DNA of 64,000 nt from Streptosporangium album. GTDB lineage: Bacteria > Actinomycetota > Actinomycetes > Streptosporangiales > Streptosporangiaceae. The stretch lies in NCBI RefSeq assembly GCF_014203795.1, contig NZ_JACHJU010000006.1:62001-126000 (forward strand), given 5' to 3'. A program made the position numbers and the translations under genes. The number at the start of each line of letters is the position of its first letter. Position 1 is the stretch's first letter. The notes under the pieces are model-generated. The model did no database searches. It saw nothing but the letters and a program-made list of their open reading frames with translations, and was not told the DNA's origin. Shown piece by piece: positions 33,600 to 48,146 of this stretch.

Positions 33600-33628
33600 G
33601 ACGTGCTCCTCTGAGACGTGAGATTAGA

Positions 33629-33649
33629 TGTACGAAACCGTTCCGTACA
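33629..33649. promoter_or_regulatory. Palindrome upstream of the SDR-TetR operon
   Basis: TGTACG (33629-33634) and CGTACA (33644-33649) frame a near-symmetric centre AAACCGTTC. The size and symmetry are those of TetR operators, so autoregulation by the downstream TetR gene is likely. Confidence 0.6.
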
Positions 33650-33750
33650 CTACGGTAGGCCGTCCCGCACCGGACGCGCAAGCGGGTGTACGCGCGTGTT
33701 CACCCGTAGTTCCCGGGCGCGTAAGCCGTCCCGGTTACGGTGAGGCGGTC

Positions 33751-34788
33751 GTGAACGGGTCATCGCCCGGCGTGGAGGACGGTCGAGACCACGCGCGGGA
33801 GCAGAGTTCGGCCGTCGCCTGGGTGGAGTCACCGCTGCAGATGCTCTGCGCCGTGGAGGCCTGCCACGCCGGGCTGCTCGGCGCCCACGCCCGGGTGGTG
33901 CCCCGTGCGGGGCTGCGCCCGCTCGCCGTCACCGGCCGGGAGATCTCCCGGCTGGACCTTCCTCCGGGGCTGGAGATGGCACCGCCCGAACCCGAGATGC
34001 CCAGGCCCCGGCGGGGCGCGGCCTGGGCGGCCGGCGACGCCTTCTCCGGAAAGGTCCAGGCGGGCTGGCTCACCGCCCTGCCCGGCCGGATCGTGATCGT
34101 CGACGACGGCCTGGCCACCATCAGGCTCCTGGAACTGCTCACCGGCCGGATCTGGACCCCGCTGCTACGGGCCCGTGCCACCGCCGGCCCCCTGCGGGCC
34201 GCCCTCGGAACGGCCGCCGGCCTGCGGCTGCGCGCCGCCGCCCGATCCGGCAGGCTGTCGGTCTTCACCGCCCTGCCCGTCCCCGACGAGCTGGCGCGGG
34301 CCGTACGGGACAGGGGAGCGGAGCTGATCACCCACGACTTCGCCTGGCTGCGGTCACAGCCCCTGCGCAGGCCCCGTCCCGAGGAGCGCACCGTCGTGCT
34401 GGGCACCTCGCTGGTCCGCAACGGCCTGATCCACCGCGACCCCTACCTCACCTGGCTGGCCGGGCTCGGCTCCTCCGAGCCGGTGGCCTACTTCCCGCAC
34501 CGCCGGGAGGACCCTCACGATCTCGCCCAGATCGGGCGACAGCCCGGTATCACCGTCTACGACGGCGGGATCCCGGCCGAGATGACCCTGCGAGGACTGG
34601 CCGCCGAACAGCGGGTGCTGAGCCTGCCCTCCACCGCGGTCACCTCCCTCCGGGTCCTGCTCTCGGCCCGTGGCGTCGCCGTGGAGACGGTGGACGTCCC
34701 CGACACGTGGTGGACCGCCCAGGCGGCTCCCTCACTCCGTTCCCATCTGTCGATGTTCGCCCATCACGACACTGGAGTCACAGGTTGA
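33751..34788 (+). CDS. Sialyl/polysialyltransferase-like glycosyltransferase
   Basis: This 345-residue protein resembles bacterial sialyltransferase families of GT-B type. It has an early AWVESPLQMLCAVEA segment (residues 22-36), as in the lipooligosaccharide sialyltransferase/PST group, a DDG motif at 118-120 in RIVIVDDGLATI, and a C-terminal GT-B half with a PSTAVTSLRVLL serine-threonine motif. The usual KPHP motif appears only as YFPHRRE, so activity or acceptor may differ. The GTG at 33751 has GAGGCGG upstream. It overlaps the next gene by four bases and lies in a nonulosonate cluster, which supports transfer of a sialic-acid-like sugar. Confidence 0.72.
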   Translation: MNGSSPGVEDGRDHAREQSSAVAWVESPLQMLCAVEACHAGLLGAHARVVPRAGLRPLAVTGREISRLDLPPGLEMAPPEPEMPRPRRGAAWAAGDAFSGKVQAGWLTALPGRIVIVDDGLATIRLLELLTGRIWTPLLRARATAGPLRAALGTAAGLRLRAAARSGRLSVFTALPVPDELARAVRDRGAELITHDFAWLRSQPLRRPRPEERTVVLGTSLVRNGLIHRDPYLTWLAGLGSSEPVAYFPHRREDPHDLAQIGRQPGITVYDGGIPAEMTLRGLAAEQRVLSLPSTAVTSLRVLLSARGVAVETVDVPDTWWTAQAAPSLRSHLSMFAHHDTGVTG

Positions 34789-35987
34789 AGGTTCTGGCCG
34801 TGGCCGACTCGGATTCCTACCTGAAGTGGGCCGCCCACCTGCTCGATGATCTCCCTTCGAGCTGTACGGCGGAGCTGACGGTGATCCGTACCCCCATCAC
34901 GCCCTCCCCGGCCCAGATCCGCGCGGCCGTCGCCGGCGCGGCCGCCGATCCACCCGTGCTGTCGGCCCGGGGACTGCGCCGGGCCGCCGAGCGGTTACGG
35001 CCCGATGTGGTGCTGGTCGCCTGTACCGGGCCCGTGGTGGACATCCTGGTGGGCGAGGTGCTCGCCGGCCTGGCACCGCGACCGGTGTTCGTCTCCGGGC
35101 TGCCCGGGATCTCCATCCCGGCGACCGAGAAGGCATGGGTGTTCCGCAGCGGGTGCGACCTGTTCGTCCTGCACAGCGAGCGGGAGGTCGAGGAGTTCTC
35201 GGCGCTGGGCCGTGAGCTGGGCGGGGGCGGGGCGGTGGGCCTGACCCGGCTGCCGTTCCTGAACAGCGGCGAGGACGTCCCCGTCACCGGCCCGCGTAAC
35301 CGGGTGGTGTTCGCGACCCAGGCCAAGGTGCCCAGGCGCAGGGAGGAGCGCGAACGGATCCTGCTCGCCCTGGCCGAGCTGGCCGAGCGGCGTCCGGACC
35401 TCGACGTGGTGGTCAAGCTCCGTGCCCTGGACACCGAGCGGCAGACCCACAACGAGCGCCACCCCTACCAGCGGCTGTGGCAGTCGCTGACGGACGGAGG
35501 CCGGGTCCGCCCCGATGGCGTGAGCTTCGCCGCGGGGCCCATGCGCGAGCATCTGGCCCACGCGGCCGGATTCGTCACGGTCAGCTCGACCGCCGCGCTG
35601 GAGGCGATCGCCCAGTCGGTGCCCCTGCTGGTGCTGTCGGACTTCGGGGTCAGCGCAGAGATGATCAACCTGGTCTTCGAGGGCAGCGGCCTGCTCGGCA
35701 CCCTGGACGACCTGTCCGAAGGGCGTTTCCGCACCCCGGAGGAGGCCTGGTGCCAGGCCAACTACTTCCACCGGCGTGGGGAGAGCGACTGGGTGTCCCA
35801 GATGGTCACGCTGGTCGCCCGGGTCCGGGCGGGACGCCTGGCCCCGGCCCGGTCCCTGCTCGACGGCCCGCAGTACGCCGCCGCGCGGCGCCGTGCCCGC
35901 CTGCGCGTCGAGGTCCCGCCCAACGTGCTGCGCGCCGGCTATCGGGCCAAGCGCCGGATGACCCGCTATCTGAAGGTCTTCGGCTGA
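34785..35987 (+). CDS. DUF6716-type putative glycosyltransferase
   Basis: This 400-residue protein begins KVLAVADSDSYLKWAAHLLD, which with its GT-B-like C-terminal half matches the DUF6716 putative glycosyltransferases of actinomycetes. Landmarks include FVSGLPGISIPATEKA near residue 105, NRVVFATQAKVPRRREER near 175 and VTVSSTAALEAIAQSVP near 265, the last being a donor-site-like motif. The start is TTG at 34785, overlapping the previous stop (TTGA), with GGAG before it. Coupling to the preceding sialyltransferase-like gene argues for a shared glycan pathway. The enzymatic role is not established for the family. Confidence 0.7.
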   Translation: MKVLAVADSDSYLKWAAHLLDDLPSSCTAELTVIRTPITPSPAQIRAAVAGAAADPPVLSARGLRRAAERLRPDVVLVACTGPVVDILVGEVLAGLAPRPVFVSGLPGISIPATEKAWVFRSGCDLFVLHSEREVEEFSALGRELGGGGAVGLTRLPFLNSGEDVPVTGPRNRVVFATQAKVPRRREERERILLALAELAERRPDLDVVVKLRALDTERQTHNERHPYQRLWQSLTDGGRVRPDGVSFAAGPMREHLAHAAGFVTVSSTAALEAIAQSVPLLVLSDFGVSAEMINLVFEGSGLLGTLDDLSEGRFRTPEEAWCQANYFHRRGESDWVSQMVTLVARVRAGRLAPARSLLDGPQYAAARRRARLRVEVPPNVLRAGYRAKRRMTRYLKVFG

Positions 35988-36060: not shown

Positions 36061-37350
36061 TTAAGGGAGTGCTCGCGACAGGCGGCGGCGGAGCCTCTCC
36101 AGCGTTCCGGGCTCCTGGACGGCGGCCGCGGGGAGCAGTCCCAGAGCGGCCAGGCGCTGGCGTTTGAAGTAGCGGGCCGGCCCGTGGGCGTCCAGGTAGG
36201 CGGCGGTGGCCTGGCGCATACCGGGGTAGACCTCACTCTGCATGCAGTAGCCGACCGCTCCGACCAGCGCCGGAAGATCCACCGGCGGTGGCCCCTCCAG
36301 CGACCCGTCGGCCGACAGCCGGGGGAGCAGGGCATCGGCGATGGTGGCGGGGACGCGGTTGCTGTTCTCGTACGGCGTGAGCCGTTCCAGGACCAGTTCC
36401 CCGCCCACCGTGGCGACCGGCAGGCCGAAGCACCGCCCCGCGGTGACCAGGGCGGTGGAGAAACAACCCGTCACGAGGGCCGGTCGCAGCGCGGCGAAGC
36501 ACGACTCGGCCGGAACGGCCTCTCCCACGACCGCCAGCTCCACGCCCAGTTCGCCGGCCGTCTCACGGAGCCGCTGGGCGTGCCGCCGCCCACCGGCCGG
36601 GTGGGGCTTGAACAGGACGGTCTCGGCTCCCCGGGCGGCCAGGCCGCGCAGCATCTCCGCGTGCAGCCCGGCCTCCTCCTCGGGGGTGACGATGTCCAGC
36701 GCGGACAGGTACTGGCCGAGGATCATCGGCGCACCGGCCGGCAGGCCGTCCATGCCCTGCCCGGCGACGCCGCCCCGCTCGACCACGTCAAGGAAGGCTC
36801 GGTCGGGAAGGGCCTCGGCGCGCACGCCGTACTCCGACAGCAGCAGGGGCGACAGGCCCGGTACGAGGTCGAGGTGGAGCAGCCGGGTGATCCGGCCGGA
36901 GATCTCCTCCGGGAGTGGGTCCCGGGTCGGGCCGTAGCTCATCAGGCCGTCGGAGTAGACCGTGATCGGGCAGTCCCTGACCAGCCCGGCCAGGGTCCGC
37001 GACGGGGGGACCGCGATGGACTCCAGGACCAGCTCGTCGGGGCCGTCGTCAAGGGAGAGATGGGAGCGCAGCAGGCGGCCCAGCATCGGGACCTCGATGA
37101 CCCGCGCCTTCCAGTCCGACGGATGCAGCGGGGCCACGATGTCGTTCCACGACCGGACCTCGTCGAACAGCGGGCGCAGCGCGGCGAAGCCGGGGGCCTC
37201 GTCCAGGGGCGGGGTGATCTCCGGAATGGCCGCGTTGTTGGAGACCAGCAGGATACGGCGGCCCCCACGCGACCCGAAGCGACCGTCGCCGATCGCCGCC
37301 GCCAGCGTCATCGCGCCGAACAGCGTCGAGGCGTAGAACAGCTGCGTCAT
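36061..37350 (-). CDS. Alpha-2,8-polysialyltransferase family protein
   Basis: This 429-residue glycosyltransferase carries the family motifs: FYASTLFGAMTLAAAI at residues 5-20, an Asp-Gly pair in YSDGLMSYGPT (134-135), the HP motif in LFKPHPAGG (248-251) and the serine-threonine motif GCFSTALVTA near 300. In this family the acidic, HP and S/T motifs bind CMP-sialic acid. It overlaps the upstream GT2 gene by four bases and convergently faces the 33.7-36.0 kb pair. It probably builds chains of, or adds, a nonulosonic acid made by the trifunctional enzyme upstream. Confidence 0.8.
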   Translation of the reverse strand: MTQLFYASTLFGAMTLAAAIGDGRFGSRGGRRILLVSNNAAIPEITPPLDEAPGFAALRPLFDEVRSWNDIVAPLHPSDWKARVIEVPMLGRLLRSHLSLDDGPDELVLESIAVPPSRTLAGLVRDCPITVYSDGLMSYGPTRDPLPEEISGRITRLLHLDLVPGLSPLLLSEYGVRAEALPDRAFLDVVERGGVAGQGMDGLPAGAPMILGQYLSALDIVTPEEEAGLHAEMLRGLAARGAETVLFKPHPAGGRRHAQRLRETAGELGVELAVVGEAVPAESCFAALRPALVTGCFSTALVTAGRCFGLPVATVGGELVLERLTPYENSNRVPATIADALLPRLSADGSLEGPPPVDLPALVGAVGYCMQSEVYPGMRQATAAYLDAHGPARYFKRQRLAALGLLPAAAVQEPGTLERLRRRLSRALP

Positions 37351-38276
37351 CGGGCCTCCAGCAGTTTCCGCAGGATCTGGTCGCGTTCCGGGTCCAGCCG
37401 GGTCTCGGCGAGCAGGCCCTCGGGCAACCGCCGCAGGGCCTCGGCTCCGCGCTGCTCGAAGCGGTCGCGGAGCTCGGGGGAGAAGCGGTCGCCCAGCTCC
37501 AGGTGGTGGGCCAGCAGTGCGCAGAACGTACGCACGGCCTTGGGCGTGAACTCGTCCTCCAGGTCCGCCAGGACCAGGTCGAAGGCGTCGAAGAAGTGCA
37601 GTTGCCTGGCGTCGCCGATCTGGGTCAGCGAGCCGGACACCATCCGCCGGTAGAAGAGCCCGGCCAGGGAGACCACCGCGAACGAGCCCGCCTGCCGGTG
37701 CAGCCGCCAGATCCACGGCCGGTCCTCGGCGGTGTGCAGGTGCCCGGGGAAGGTCAGCAGGTCACCGAGGTCGCGCCGGTAGATCCCGGCCCACGCGTAG
37801 GGGTAGTCGACCATGGTCTTCACCTCGGCGGGAAGGATGTGGTCGCGCGGCTTCAGCACCACTTCCCGGGTGGCCAGGGGGGCGCGGTGGATCACCCTCC
37901 TGCGCCCCTCCACCTGGACGTGGTCCACCCGGACGAAGTCGCAGCCGAGCCGTTCGGCCGCCCCGACCAGGTCGGTGAGATAGCCCGGCGCGAGCCAGTC
38001 GTCACCGTCCATGAAGGTCAGGTAGCGGCCCGAGGCCAGCGACGTCCCGAGGTTACGGGCGTCCGCCAGCCCGGCCGGCGTCTCGTTGCGCAGGACGACC
38101 AGGCCGGGCAGGTCGGCGCGGAAGTCCTCGATGATCTGCCCGGTCGCGTCCACCGACCCGTCGTCGACCACGATGAACTCGAATTCCCGGTGCGCGTTTC
38201 TGGCGAGCGAGGTGAGCGCGTCCGATATGTAGAGCTCGGCGTCCCGCACCGGGACGACGACGGACAGTTTGATCAA
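37347..38276 (-). CDS. Family 2 glycosyltransferase
   Basis: This 309-residue GT-A enzyme has the N-terminal VVVPVRDAELYISDALTSL, the DDGS motif near residue 38 (VVDDGSVDATGQI) and the metal-binding DGDDWL near 91. The C-terminal part contains AEDRPWIWRLHRQ near 183, typical of TagF/CPS-type transferases acting on lipid-linked or polymer acceptors. It lies 54 bases after the trifunctional nonulosonate gene and overlaps the polysialyltransferase gene. It probably adds a neutral sugar or initiates the repeat unit. Confidence 0.88.
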   Translation of the reverse strand: MIKLSVVVPVRDAELYISDALTSLARNAHREFEFIVVDDGSVDATGQIIEDFRADLPGLVVLRNETPAGLADARNLGTSLASGRYLTFMDGDDWLAPGYLTDLVGAAERLGCDFVRVDHVQVEGRRRVIHRAPLATREVVLKPRDHILPAEVKTMVDYPYAWAGIYRRDLGDLLTFPGHLHTAEDRPWIWRLHRQAGSFAVVSLAGLFYRRMVSGSLTQIGDARQLHFFDAFDLVLADLEDEFTPKAVRTFCALLAHHLELGDRFSPELRDRFEQRGAEALRRLPEGLLAETRLDPERDQILRKLLEAR

Positions 38277-38330: not shown

Positions 38331-40382
38331 CTATACGGTGACGCGGCGCAGGCGGGACTTGGGAGCCTCCTCGCCGGGGAAGACCCGCTTGACGCCGTCA
38401 CCGAGGGCGGTCTCGATGATGCGGATGTCGCGGATCAGGTGCTCCAGGCCGGACGGCTCCAGCGAGGCGGCGTGGTCGGAGCCCCACATGGTGCGGTCCA
38501 GCGTGATGTGCCGTTCCACGGTCACCGCGCCCAGGGTCACCGCGGCGAGCGAGATCTGCAGGCCGCGCTCGTGGCCGGAGTAGCCGACGGGCACGCCGTA
38601 CCTCTCCTGGAGGGTGCCGATCGTGCGGAGGTTGGCCTCCTCCGGGGGAAGCGGGTAGGTGGAGGTGGCGTGCATCAGCACCAGCTTGGAGGTGCCGAGG
38701 ATCTCCACCGCCTGATCGATCTCCTCCAGGGTGGACATGCCGGTGGACAGGATGAGCGGCTTGCCGGTGGCGGCGAGCGCGCGGAGCAGTTCCAGGTCGG
38801 TCACGCTGGCCGAGGCGATCTTGTGGGTGACCACGTCCATGGACTCCAGGAACTCCACCGACGGCACGTCCCACGGCGAGGCGAACCAGTGCAGGCCCCG
38901 CTCCTCGCAGTACTTGGCGATCTGGGTGTACTCGTCCAGGCCGAACTCGGTCCTGATCTTGTACTCCATGTAGGTCATCTCGCCCCACGGCGTCTGCCGG
39001 ATCTGGTCGCGCTGCTCCAGCGGCACGCAGATCTCCGGGGTGCGCTTCTGGAACTTGACCGCCTGGCAGCCCGCCTCCGCCGCCACGTCGATGAGCCTGC
39101 GCGCGATGTCCAGATCGCCGTTGTGGTTGATGCCGATCTCGCCGATCACGTAGACCGGCTGACCGGCGCCGACCAGCGCGTCGCCGATCTGGACCGGTTT
39201 GGCGACCGGGGTGAGCCGCAGTTCGGCGCGGGGCGCGGGGGTCGTCTCGGCCGCCGGGCGGGCCGCGAGGACCCGGTCGCACAGCTCCCGTACGGCTCCG
39301 GCCCCACCCGGCCTGGTGAGCACGGTCCGGGCGGCGGCACGGACCCGGGGATGGGCGTCGGGGACCGTGACGGGCCAGCCGACCTCGCTCATCGGGCCCA
39401 GGTCGTTGACGTCGTTGCCGATGTAGGCGACGCGGGCCGGGTCCAGCCCCTCGATGGCCAGCCAGTCGCGCAGGACGGTCCGCTTGTCGGTCAGACCCTG
39501 CAGGACCGGCACGCCGAGCTTCCGGGCGCGGGCCGCGACCACCGGGTTGTGCTCGGTGGACATGATCATCAGTTTGACCCCGGACCTGCGCAGCAGCGCG
39601 ATGCCCATGCCGTCGGAGCGGCTGACCGCGACCATCTCGCGGCCGTCCTGGTCGACGTAGGCGCGGTCGTCGGTGTGCACGCCGTCGAAGTCGGTGATCA
39701 CGGCGTCCACGTCGATCGGCTCGGGCTGGTCCACGAACGGCGCCAGCGCCCGGACGATCTCCAATTCCTCGGAGGTGTCGATCTCGATGGCGTGCCGTGC
39801 CGGCACCTCCTGCACCGCGACCGTGCCGAAGAAGCGGTGACCGTGCTCGCGGAGGCCCTCGGCGCGCATCACGTAGAACGCGCCGGTCTCGCGGAAGTGC
39901 GGCTCACGGTCCTGGCGGCGCGGGCGGGAGGACGGGTCGTGGTTGACGCCCGCGCCGGCGGAGCTCCAGAGGAACTCGTGCGTCTCCAGCCCGGAGAACA
40001 CCACGTCGGCGGTGCCGTCGAGGACCTTGACGATGGCGGTGTCCAGGTCGGTGGGGTCGATGAACGCGCTGGTGCACTGCACCAGGACGACCACGTCGGG
40101 AGTCTCGGGCAGGTGGTCGAGCACGTGCAGCACGGCGGACTCGCTGGAGGCGGTCGCGCCGCTCAGCTCGTCGGGACGGTCGATCACGGTCGCGCCGGCT
40201 TCGCGGGCCACCGCGGCGATCTCCGCGTGGTCGGTGCTGACCACTACCTCGTCGATCAGTTCGGCGCGCACGCAGGCCTTCACCGCACGGGCGACCAGGG
40301 GAGTGCCGCCCACCACGGCCAGGTTCTTGAGGGGGACGCCCACCGAACCTCCACGGGCGGGGACAACGGCCAGGACTCGCAA
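38331..40382 (-). CDS. Trifunctional CMP-nonulosonate synthetase / KdsC-like phosphatase / NeuB-type synthase
   Basis: This single 683-residue protein combines three steps of sialic-acid-like sugar synthesis. Residues 1-220 are a NeuA-type cytidylyltransferase (ARGGSVGVPLKNL nucleotide loop, HFRETGAFYVM). Residues 225-375 are a KdsC-like HAD phosphatase with D231/D233 in ITDFDGVHTDD and GNDVNDLGPM. Residues 400-683 are a NeuB-type condensing barrel (IGEIGINHNG, AVKFQKRTPE, MWGSDHAASLEP). The C-terminal SAF/antifreeze domain of classical NeuB is absent. A phosphatase domain suggests a 9-phosphate product such as Kdn-9-P or Neu5Ac-9-P. The start is TTG at 40382 with GAGGAG before it. Confidence 0.88.
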   Translation of the reverse strand: MRVLAVVPARGGSVGVPLKNLAVVGGTPLVARAVKACVRAELIDEVVVSTDHAEIAAVAREAGATVIDRPDELSGATASSESAVLHVLDHLPETPDVVVLVQCTSAFIDPTDLDTAIVKVLDGTADVVFSGLETHEFLWSSAGAGVNHDPSSRPRRQDREPHFRETGAFYVMRAEGLREHGHRFFGTVAVQEVPARHAIEIDTSEELEIVRALAPFVDQPEPIDVDAVITDFDGVHTDDRAYVDQDGREMVAVSRSDGMGIALLRRSGVKLMIMSTEHNPVVAARARKLGVPVLQGLTDKRTVLRDWLAIEGLDPARVAYIGNDVNDLGPMSEVGWPVTVPDAHPRVRAAARTVLTRPGGAGAVRELCDRVLAARPAAETTPAPRAELRLTPVAKPVQIGDALVGAGQPVYVIGEIGINHNGDLDIARRLIDVAAEAGCQAVKFQKRTPEICVPLEQRDQIRQTPWGEMTYMEYKIRTEFGLDEYTQIAKYCEERGLHWFASPWDVPSVEFLESMDVVTHKIASASVTDLELLRALAATGKPLILSTGMSTLEEIDQAVEILGTSKLVLMHATSTYPLPPEEANLRTIGTLQERYGVPVGYSGHERGLQISLAAVTLGAVTVERHITLDRTMWGSDHAASLEPSGLEHLIRDIRIIETALGDGVKRVFPGEEAPKSRLRRVTV

Positions 40383-40532
40383 GGTGACTCCTCATGACAT
40401 ACGGCAAAAGCCCCTGAACTGGGGTGTTTGACGAACGCTAGCCATGAGGGTGGCCGGACAGGGGTGCCTGAGCTGAACGACCAGAGTCGCCCGCCTTAAC
40501 TTTCCGCGCGAGGTGGGGGCCCCAACACGGCA

Positions 40533-40588: not shown

Positions 40589-40774
40589 CTACTCGGCGAA
40601 GTGGCCCCGCTTCTCGTCGGCGGCTTTCTTGGCCCTGTCCTTGGCCTTGTCCGCCGCCTCCTTCGCCTTACCCTTGGCCTGGTCCGCCCGGCCCTTGTTG
40701 GCCAGACTGTCGTTGTCGACCGTCTTGCCGGCGGTCTCCTTGACCTTGCCCTTGATCTGGTCGAAGTTCGTCAT
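40589..40774 (-). CDS. CsbD family stress protein
   Basis: This hydrophilic 61-residue helical protein begins MTNFDQIKGKVKETAGK and continues with lysine/alanine-rich repeats KGKAKEAADKAKDRAKKAAD, the CsbD pattern. Family members are general-stress or sigma-factor-regulated proteins of unknown mechanism. A GGGGGAG ribosome site precedes the ATG at 40774. The strong hairpin downstream is its likely terminator. Confidence 0.88.
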   Translation of the reverse strand: MTNFDQIKGKVKETAGKTVDNDSLANKGRADQAKGKAKEAADKAKDRAKKAADEKRGHFAE

Positions 40775-46877: not shown

Positions 46878-48146
46878 TTAAGCGGCGCGCGGGGGTTGAC
46901 GCCTCGCAGACCGGGCAGCCCCGAGGTCTCCGCGTCCTGACACCGCAGTTCCTGCGGCGTTGCGAATGTTGATCGCGGCGTTGGTGTCGGCGTGGCCGAC
47001 CCACCCACACGCGGGGTTGGCGCAGGAGAACCGGGTGCCGTCACGGGAGGCCGCGTCGCGGTGCCCGCACTGGTGGCAGGTCTGTGACGTGCCCGGGGCG
47101 GGGACCTTCACCACCAGCCCGCCGCGATCACGGGTTTTGTACTCCAGCAAGGCGACCGTGCGGCCCCACGCCTCGCCGGTGATGGCGCGGTTCAGCCCTG
47201 CCTTCTGCGTCACGTTCCGGCCGGGTTGTTCGATCGTGCCCTTGGCAGAGCGGACCATGTTCGCGATCTTCAGATCCTCCACCACGATCACGCTGAAGGT
47301 GTCAGCGAGTTCGGTGGTGGTCTGGTGCTGCCAGTTAACGGCTCGGCGCTTGGCTGTCGCGCGGAGCCTGGCTATCTGGTCATAGGTGCGGGTCAGCCGA
47401 TGAGAGGTCCGCTGTCCGGGGGTACGGGCAGCGCGCTGGCGGGCGGATTTCTTCTCCAGGCGGCGCAGGTGTTCACGCTCACCGCCGGTGAGCCAGGGGC
47501 CGTGCTCACGCGTGGTCTGGTCCGACAATGCCAAGGCGACGGTGATCCCCCGGTCGATCCCCACGGCTGGACCGGGATGGGTCTCCATGACCGGAGCGGT
47601 CATGGTCTCGGTCCGGAACACGATCTGCCAGCCAAAGGCGTCCTTGACCAGCCGGGCTCCGGTGATCCGCCCGGTCGGGCCGCCCTTGGTGACGCCGGGC
47701 AGGTCCTTGGTCCACCGAAACCGCACCCGCCCGACCTTGGGCAGGTTGACCGCACCCCACCGCCGGTTGATTCGCTTGATCTGCAGGTCGCGAGCCTGAG
47801 GCACATCGACGGCCGGTCGGGAACCGAACCGGGCCTTGAACGTCGGGCGTTTAGCGGGGTGATCAGGGTTGAAGAAGTTCGCCCACGCCTGCCGGTAGGT
47901 CTTCAGCACGGCCTGAGCCGCCTGGGCGGGCAGTTGGCCTATCCAGTCGATCTCATGACGAGCCGCCCGGATCGCGGTGTCGCACTCCTTCAACGTCGCG
48001 AACCGGCCTTGGCGGAAGGTGAAGTACTCGTGTAGCAGGTTCCACAGCGTGCGGGCGGTGTGCGCCTGGCCGTCCAGCACCGCCACCTGGGCTGTGCTCA
48101 ACTCCAGGCGGGCCACATGCGCCCGCGTCTGCCTCACCTTCTCCAC
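46878..48146 (-). CDS. tnpB: TnpB, RNA-guided endonuclease of an IS200/IS605 element
   Basis: This 422-residue nuclease is of the TnpB family, the ancestor of Cas12. The RuvC-like active site is complete: Asp198 in VGIDRGI, Glu290 in VVEDLKI and Asp387 in GHADTNAAINI. The zinc finger Cys357, Cys360, Cys375 and Cys380 is intact between them. TnpB uses an omega RNA made from the element's end to cut DNA. That RNA would come from its own 3' end and the tail to about 46828. The GTG at 48146 faces the dead tnpA. With TnpA inactive, the protein may now serve another purpose or be in decay. Confidence 0.9.
   Translation of the reverse strand: MEKVRQTRAHVARLELSTAQVAVLDGQAHTARTLWNLLHEYFTFRQGRFATLKECDTAIRAARHEIDWIGQLPAQAAQAVLKTYRQAWANFFNPDHPAKRPTFKARFGSRPAVDVPQARDLQIKRINRRWGAVNLPKVGRVRFRWTKDLPGVTKGGPTGRITGARLVKDAFGWQIVFRTETMTAPVMETHPGPAVGIDRGITVALALSDQTTREHGPWLTGGEREHLRRLEKKSARQRAARTPGQRTSHRLTRTYDQIARLRATAKRRAVNWQHQTTTELADTFSVIVVEDLKIANMVRSAKGTIEQPGRNVTQKAGLNRAITGEAWGRTVALLEYKTRDRGGLVVKVPAPGTSQTCHQCGHRDAASRDGTRFSCANPACGWVGHADTNAAINIRNAAGTAVSGRGDLGAARSARRQPPRAA

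Follow-up and report, generated by a model that had tools for sequence, protein, structure and literature searches.

We analyzed a 64,000-nucleotide stretch of a Streptosporangium album contig (hereafter, the window) that encodes a 683-residue protein in which a NeuA-type cytidylyltransferase, a KdsC-type phosphatase, and a NeuB-type synthase share one open frame. Based on its retained catalytic residues, altered sugar-side contacts, and neighboring genes, we infer that this fusion is likely a trifunctional synthase of cytidine monophosphate (CMP)-activated 2-keto-3-deoxynononic acid (Kdn), serving a phosphate-free, teichulosonic-type wall polymer that is possibly controlled by PhoP. The C-terminal NeuB domain would form Kdn-9-phosphate from mannose-6-phosphate and phosphoenolpyruvate (PEP), the KdsC-type domain in the middle would dephosphorylate this product to Kdn, and the N-terminal NeuA domain would join Kdn to cytidine triphosphate (CTP), giving CMP-Kdn. 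Neighboring glycosyltransferases would use the CMP-Kdn to build a Kdn-containing wall glycopolymer without phosphate (teichulosonic acid), and PhoP may switch on synthesis of this polymer in phosphate limitation. The three-domain fusion is real and conserved among relatives, and the enzyme is probably working.

Domain architecture, catalytic residues, and candidate substrates

The gene occupies positions 38331-40382 of the minus strand, with a TTG start at 40382, a GAGGAG 6 to 11 bases before the start, and a stop at 38331-38333. The plus-strand translation of the same interval is an antisense open frame and was rejected as the gene. An earlier sequence-only reading had described one 683-residue frame with domains in the order NeuA, KdsC, and NeuB and no C-terminal SAF domain. 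Apart from the strand, which it omitted, this description was borne out by Pfam, NCBIfam, and PDB searches, which placed the NeuA-type cytidylyltransferase at residues ∼1-212, the KdsC-type haloacid dehalogenase (HAD) phosphatase at ∼225-377, and the NeuB synthase at ∼395-680. The Pfam matches were CTP_transf_3 (5-158), HAD (297-356), and NeuB (430-665), with no SAF match. Those from NCBIfam were a KdsC-type phosphatase (225-377) and NeuB_NnaB (410-679), the latter reaching only profile position 277 of 329, and all NCBIfam matches of the protein were below the curated cut-offs. The parts of the protein are as follows.

Residues 1-215, 39738..40382, minus strand: domain 1, NeuA-type CMP-nonulosonate cytidylyltransferase, third step (Pfam, residues, fold)
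Residues 222-375, 39258..39719, minus strand: domain 2, KdsC/YrbI-type HAD phosphatase, second step (NCBIfam, residues, fold)
Residues 376-393, 39204..39257, minus strand: linker, Pro/Ala-rich, of low model confidence, 13-34 residues long in 88 fused copies
Residues 394-683, 38334..39203, minus strand: domain 3, NeuB-type PEP-condensing synthase without SAF, first step (Pfam, NCBIfam, residues)

Structure prediction, which the sequence-only reading had proposed as a check, yielded three confident domains in an AlphaFold2 model built on a 61-row alignment (mean predicted local distance difference test [pLDDT], 89.2; predicted template modeling score [pTM], 0.51). The sole inner stretch with pLDDT of <50 was residues 378-390, within the linker, and the mutual placing of the three domains is not fixed by the model because of the pTM of 0.51. 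In Foldseek searches, every domain matched solved enzymes of its own step: 9t4z and 1qwj (TMt for the two, 0.84-0.88) and 1eyr for domain 1; KdsC entries for domain 2, whose closest solved structure is 3mmz from Streptomyces avermitilis (55-56% identity; TMt, 0.86-0.91); and 6ncs (TMt, 0.88), 8h2c, and 1xuu for domain 3.

Residues were counted in 88 fused loci, comprising the window copy, the best 80 of 542 relatives from a scan of genome contigs, six further loci, and a second, separately placed fusion (L173), together with 31 split loci in which NeuA-KdsC and NeuB are separate genes. The 80 kept relatives are best matches and not an unbiased sample; the 88-copy set drew on two collections, and some species may occur twice. 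Four loci were omitted from these counts and from the tree described below: L178, whose parts lie on opposite strands; L192, whose NeuA is incomplete; and L174 and L187, which each lack one part.

Loss of catalytic residues, the outcome that the sequence-only reading had named as damaging to it, was not found in the HAD and NeuB sets of any of the 88 copies, and the NeuA set was likewise kept except at R155 and one loop lysine. In NeuA, R10, S13, K19, N20, Q102, R153, R156, Q157, E200, and D202 were invariant (88/88), and R155 was retained in 83/88. The domain scored 76.7 bits against PF02348 (gathering threshold, 22.6), which, together with the following residues, places it among the CMP-nonulosonate synthetases. 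Key residues of the Escherichia coli and meningococcal CMAS/NeuA enzymes are R12, K21, Q104, D209, and D211 (PMC2901514; cited papers are drawn on here for selected passages), and counterparts R10, K19, Q102, and D202 were present in 88/88 fused copies. The place of meningococcal D209 is taken by Glu (E200) in all 88 fused and all 31 split copies. The loop lysine of ARGGSKG is V in 40, A in 47, and T in 1 of the fused copies (V14 in the window) and K in 27, Q in 2, R in 1, and V in 1 of the split ones; it is absent from both fusion lineages and retained in split locus L188. For the core set of listed catalytic residues, 30 or 31 of the 31 split copies were identical. V at the loop-lysine place and Glu at the D209 place are also found in 9t4z, a solved CMP-Kdn synthetase, which suggests that neither change abolishes activity.

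HAD phosphatases act through the motifs DxD, S/T, K, and DxxD. The corresponding residues D231, D233, S275, K300, D324, and D327 were invariant in 88/88 fused copies, as expected of a member of this phosphatase superfamily. The NeuB domain matched PF03102 over its whole profile (positions 1-241 of 241) with 280.3 bits against a gathering threshold of 22.1, placing it in the NeuB family, and its E415, K443, Q445, K521, Y576, H604, E623, H625, and D636 were also invariant in 88/88.

The sugar side of the NeuB active site differs. By pairwise alignment with the meningococcal enzyme, whose residue roles we took from PMC6795526, PEP and metal residues E25, K53, Q55, K129, Y186, H215, E234, and H236 are retained, and sugar-side contacts N74, T110, F112, and N184 become E468, S502, W504, and S574. 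The meningococcal SAF arginine R314 has no counterpart in the fusion; in that enzyme, it contacts N-acetylmannosamine (ManNAc), and R314A is inactive while R314K is active (PMC6795526). Provision of SAF by a neighboring gene was rejected, as both SAF matches of the host genome lie on contig C1 and the window lies on C6. One of the two is in a PseI-type NeuB and the other is in a separate 320-amino-acid frame. The PseI-type gene (G000:C1:4047681-4048532; L174:6986-8026) has a PseI score of 456 against a cut-off of 340.25, carries SAF, and adjoins a family 2 glycosyltransferase (GT2) gene. Judging by these features, this second host NeuB belongs to a separate, predicted pseudaminic-acid-type pathway.

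The host genome encodes a type I mannose-6-phosphate isomerase. Neither NanE, which supplies ManNAc-6-phosphate, nor NeuC was found over cut-off in that genome, with two weak matches for each. Twelve other genomes of the genus were compared: 8 had NanE over cut-off (G299, G397, G414, G377, G464, G351, G449, and G481), and 4 had no match (G476, G491, G429, and G457). The fusion is present in 7 of the 8 genomes with NanE (all but G377) and in 4/4 without it. NanE is thus common among carriers of the fusion, and the fusion does not depend on it, since four genomes of the genus carry the fusion without a NanE match. Supply genes and sugar contacts together favor mannose-6-phosphate and Kdn without proving them, and the sequence-only reading's lean toward Kdn survives. 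NanE is not over cut-off in the host, though it is in 8 of those 12 same-genus genomes.

An unlikely alternative is that the same three steps act on ManNAc-6-phosphate, which would make the protein an animal-type trifunctional CMP-N-acetylneuraminate synthase feeding a sialic acid polymer. This would fit the best NCBIfam score of the NeuB part, which is to N-acetylneuraminate synthase TIGR03569 (268.3 bits), as well as the nearby gene of polysialyltransferase family PF07388 and the NanE genes of relatives, seven of which also carry the fusion. The joining of NeuA and HAD in one chain is also what we take to be the layout of animal CMAS, and mouse entries 1qwj and 3ewi were among the PDB matches. 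However, the TIGR03569 score is below its cut-off of 399.65 and covers only profile positions 1-277 of 329, the SAF domain that bears the ManNAc-contacting arginine of the meningococcal enzyme is missing, the sugar-side contacts are replaced, and the host has neither NanE nor NeuC over cut-off.

Spread and origin of the fusion

A single open frame ran through all three domains in 80/80 kept relatives, whose titles we take to name genera of Streptosporangiaceae. The window's family was represented by 250 genomes, of which 115 matched at an E value of ≤1e-60 and 135 had no match at that threshold. The fusion was found in 98 of the 115; in 14, NeuA-KdsC and NeuB were separate neighbors or had a single stop between them; and the matches in the other 3 (G275, G372, and G434) were apparently cut by contig ends. 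All but one of the 98, the window's own genome included, were full length without a stop (97), and G366 matched in two pieces within one open frame. Of 296 genomes of the class, 116 matched at an E value of ≤0.001, many weakly, and the sole uninterrupted full-length match from beyond the family was G248. Among 396 genomes of the phylum, 24 matched at ≤1e-60, and only the window's own genome did so at full length and uninterrupted. The search for the same fusion in other actinomycetes, also suggested by the sequence-only reading, was positive, and the 80/80 kept relatives and 98/115 family genomes rule out a chance or assembly fusion. Locus L097 was rejected as fused because a stop follows its phosphatase; its genome was counted as split through a longer stretch, L176.

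A phage origin was rejected for lack of a PHROGs match. A viral contig collection yielded 10 relatives, 38-55% identical over their best segments, and 7 of these cover the NeuB part only. In a plasmid collection, 131 records matched and 8 covered ≥80% of the query; among the 25 plasmid matches listed, the sole full-length, one-piece match was a chromosome-sized Nonomuraea gerenzanensis record.

We built a tree of 57 loci (26 of the 88 fused copies and 31 split) with a quick method. On it, 25 of the fused copies cluster together (SH-aLRT, 100) with no split row among them, and the remaining fusion, L173 of G248 (also L095), pairs with split locus L188 (SH-aLRT, 95), so that the fused/split label requires two changes. 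This second placing is less sure, given the long end branches of both L173 and L188. In split loci L092 to L094, both genes lie in one frame and are parted by a single TAG, and G248 still has a Met where the NeuB gene formerly began. Based on the single TAG and the two label changes, the fusion probably arose through loss of a stop between two tightly packed genes, and most likely did so twice.

The split neighbors that differ from a fusion by one in-frame stop, the Met kept in L173, and a variable linker predicted to be flexible could also indicate that NeuB is mostly produced, or mostly works, as a protein of its own, through an internal start or linker cleavage, with the fusion of little functional weight. 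We consider this quite improbable, as only 4/88 fused copies have a linker Met (counting Met alone) and all 25 sampled rows of the fused tree group are fused. Pro and Ala make up 45% of the 1,649 linker residues in the 88 copies. Nonsynonymous divergence (dN) was below synonymous divergence (dS) in each of the three domains in 7/7 pairs tested, and dN exceeded dS for the linker in 2/7 (L007 and L015).

It is very unlikely that one domain has lost its catalytic activity or taken on another role, as the cytidylyltransferase might have done on losing its loop lysine, with another gene supplying the step. This reading draws on the V, A, or T at the loop-lysine place in 88/88 fused copies, the Glu at the D209 place, and animal CMAS, a NeuA-HAD chain whose HAD part is inactive. 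Against it, the other listed NeuA residues are kept in 88/88 (R155 in 83), no listed HAD or NeuB residue is lost, the V and Glu recur in 9t4z, and a search of the host genome with the fusion (E value, ≤0.001) yields only the fusion itself and the PseI-type NeuB.

Gene neighborhood, upstream repeat, and proposed wall polymer

The proposed CMP-Kdn synthase lies in a conserved neighborhood with an upstream direct repeat. Flanks were ≤6 kb and ended early in some loci, so the following neighbor counts are lower bounds.

37347..38276, minus strand: GT2 directly downstream of the fusion gene (Pfam), in at least 79/80 fused loci
36061..37350, minus strand: glycosyltransferase of the alpha-2,8-polysialyltransferase family (PF07388), starting at the Met of MTQLFYAST (37350), in at least 79/80 fused loci
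34707..35987, plus strand: DUF6716 putative glycosyltransferase (PF20471), in at least 67/80 fused loci
33628..34788, plus strand: protein without a family match, in at least 54/80 fused loci
40474..40500, minus strand: PHO-box-like direct repeat GTTAA/GTTCA, 22 bases apart, upstream of the fusion gene

In 35 split loci, at least 25 had the GT2 gene, 22 the PF07388 gene, 25 the DUF6716 gene, and 17 the 33628-type protein gene. Streptomyces-like split loci L176, L183 to L186, and L193 have GT2, polysialyltransferase, and DUF6716 genes in their flanks. The 33628..34788 protein had no Pfam, NCBIfam, or PHROGs match; its VAWVESPLQ stretch (from 33814) is reminiscent of sialyltransferase-type enzymes. 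Directly upstream of the fusion gene, on the same strand, is a gene for a CsbD-like 61-residue protein (40589-40774). Further along, the minus-strand frame at 46878-48146 is presumably an IS200/IS605-type TnpB, given the zinc-finger CxxC motifs in its translation.

A GTT[AC]A pair occurs upstream of the fusion gene in 79/81 regions, with 22-base spacing in 75 and 11-base spacing in 4, compared with a mean of 0.04/81 in Markov shuffles (maximum, 1) and 0/640 in coding windows. The 79/81 count is descriptive, because the spacing test was framed after the upstream sequences had been viewed and the copies share ancestry. The 33628 gene had no such pair upstream, at either spacing, in 49/49 relatives. 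Two-unit PHO scoring gave a weak excess, with 10/82 regions against 8/246 mononucleotide shuffles at a score of ≥11, and GTTCACC-N4-GTTCA had 5 matches with ≤2 mismatches in the window where 3.09 were expected, which is no evidence by itself. The fusion gene is possibly under PhoP control through this putative PHO-box-like repeat.

Two PHO-box-like features lie elsewhere. Split loci L170 and L171 have 11-base repeats GTTCACC/T...GTTCA ∼240 bases upstream of NeuA-KdsC on the opposite strand. Within the window, GTTCACCCGTAGTTCC at 33698-33713 is one mismatch from a PHO-box pattern; it lies close to the 5' end of the 33628 frame, ahead of the part that encodes VESPLQ.

The published context is consistent with a wall polymer. 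S. coelicolor SCO4873-SCO4882 is described as a PhoP-controlled teichulosonic acid cluster (PMC13011467, citing Ostash 2014), SCO4881 is named NeuB (PMC2367054), and Streptomyces teichulosonic acid consists of galactose and Kdn (PMC11481543, PMC7831098). For Planobispora rosea, the genes listed as Pho-activated include, among others, a “Sialic acid synthase” set against SCO4880 and a GT2 set against SCO4878; the authors treat the locus as teichuronic acid genes, and their metabolic model has a teichuronic acid of N-acetylgalactosamine and glucuronate (PMC8269224). The locus of Planobispora takensis (L010) is fused, and we infer that the P. rosea “Sialic acid synthase” is the fusion. The enzymes of this kind of locus point instead to a Kdn polymer, a testable correction of that teichuronic acid assignment.

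Several observations weigh against a PhoP-controlled CMP-Kdn synthase. Against the Kdn-9-phosphate phosphatase model NF058599, the phosphatase scores 87.6 bits (cut-off, 180), which is lower than its scores against KdsC/YrbI model TIGR01670 (94.8; cut-off, 106.95) and another KdsC model (107.2; cut-off, 208); all three are below cut-off. ManNAc-6-phosphate would be available in most relatives looked at, given NanE in 8/12, and the loop lysine is absent from 88/88 fused copies versus K in 27/31 split ones. The Streptomyces PHO box consists of 11-base direct repeats, and the repeat here is mostly spaced by 22 bases (75/81) rather than 11 (4/81). In 22 other loci, comprising L173 and 21 split ones, the 22-base pair is never present on the strand of the gene; 5 of them, L170 and L171 included, carry an 11-base pair somewhere, and L173 has neither spacing. 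Finally, the tie to the S. coelicolor and P. rosea loci runs through published names and the gene content of Streptomyces-like genomes.

More speculatively, and less likely than not, these elements might be joined into one picture. The fusion would be a three-step assembly line in which the phosphatase, set between synthase and cytidylyltransferase, takes Kdn-9-phosphate directly and hands Kdn on; loss of SAF would mark a mannose-6-phosphate-specific NeuB branch extending from actinomycetes to rhizobia; and, when phosphate is limiting, Streptosporangiaceae would replace teichoic acid with a phosphate-free Kdn wall polymer rather than with teichuronic acid.

Comparison with known systems

An enzyme that makes CMP-Kdn from a single gene would be useful in Kdn glycan synthesis, and a fusion without SAF makes the role of this domain in NeuB substrate choice testable. 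No NeuA-phosphatase-NeuB protein was named in the open-access PMC literature searched, and the published NeuB fusions that came up carry one extra domain in the passages drawn on (PMC3438082, PMC9000132).

Among the closest likenesses is that to the Streptomyces-like split loci, where NeuA-KdsC adjoins NeuB with GT2, polysialyltransferase, and DUF6716 genes, and to S. coelicolor SCO4873-SCO4882, which contains a NeuB (SCO4881) according to published descriptions. There, NeuA-KdsC and NeuB are separate neighboring genes (the SCO link being by published names), whereas here they form one protein. Sinorhizobium meliloti (CP140934.1, L212) has a 312-amino-acid NeuB without a SAF match, a 389-amino-acid NeuA-KdsC, and an adjoining DUF6716 gene. 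It differs in that the genes are separate, ∼42% identical, and arranged with NeuB first. A capsular polysaccharide gene and one for an ABC transporter permease lie nearby. Kdn is described in a capsule of Sinorhizobium fredii (PMC9000132).

Among single enzymes, PpNeuA CMP-Kdn synthetase (9t4z) is the second-best sequence match and best-ranked fold match of domain 1 and shares the loop V, but it is a cytidylyltransferase alone, in a 251-residue chain. Animal CMAS (mouse 1qwj and 3ewi) presumably joins a cytidylyltransferase and a KdsC-like HAD in one chain, both halves being among our PDB matches, but it lacks a NeuB domain; in animals, synthase and phosphatase are separate proteins. The nonulosonate synthase of Leptospira interrogans is another NeuB fusion, with a C-terminal extra domain and a proposed 9-phosphate route (PMC3438082). 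As described there, it differs in having two domains, another partner domain, and NeuB at the N terminus. Leptospira NeuB 6ncs, at 285-290 residues, appears too short for SAF, judging by its length.

The proposed chemistry is that of the Kdn route of Bacteroides thetaiotaomicron, in which mannose-6-phosphate and PEP give Kdn-9-phosphate and then Kdn (PMC6200933). That route uses separate enzymes, and the fusion phosphatase is below the cut-off of NF058599, the model for its phosphatase type (3e81). The fusion is a variant of an already known pathway and no new kind of system.

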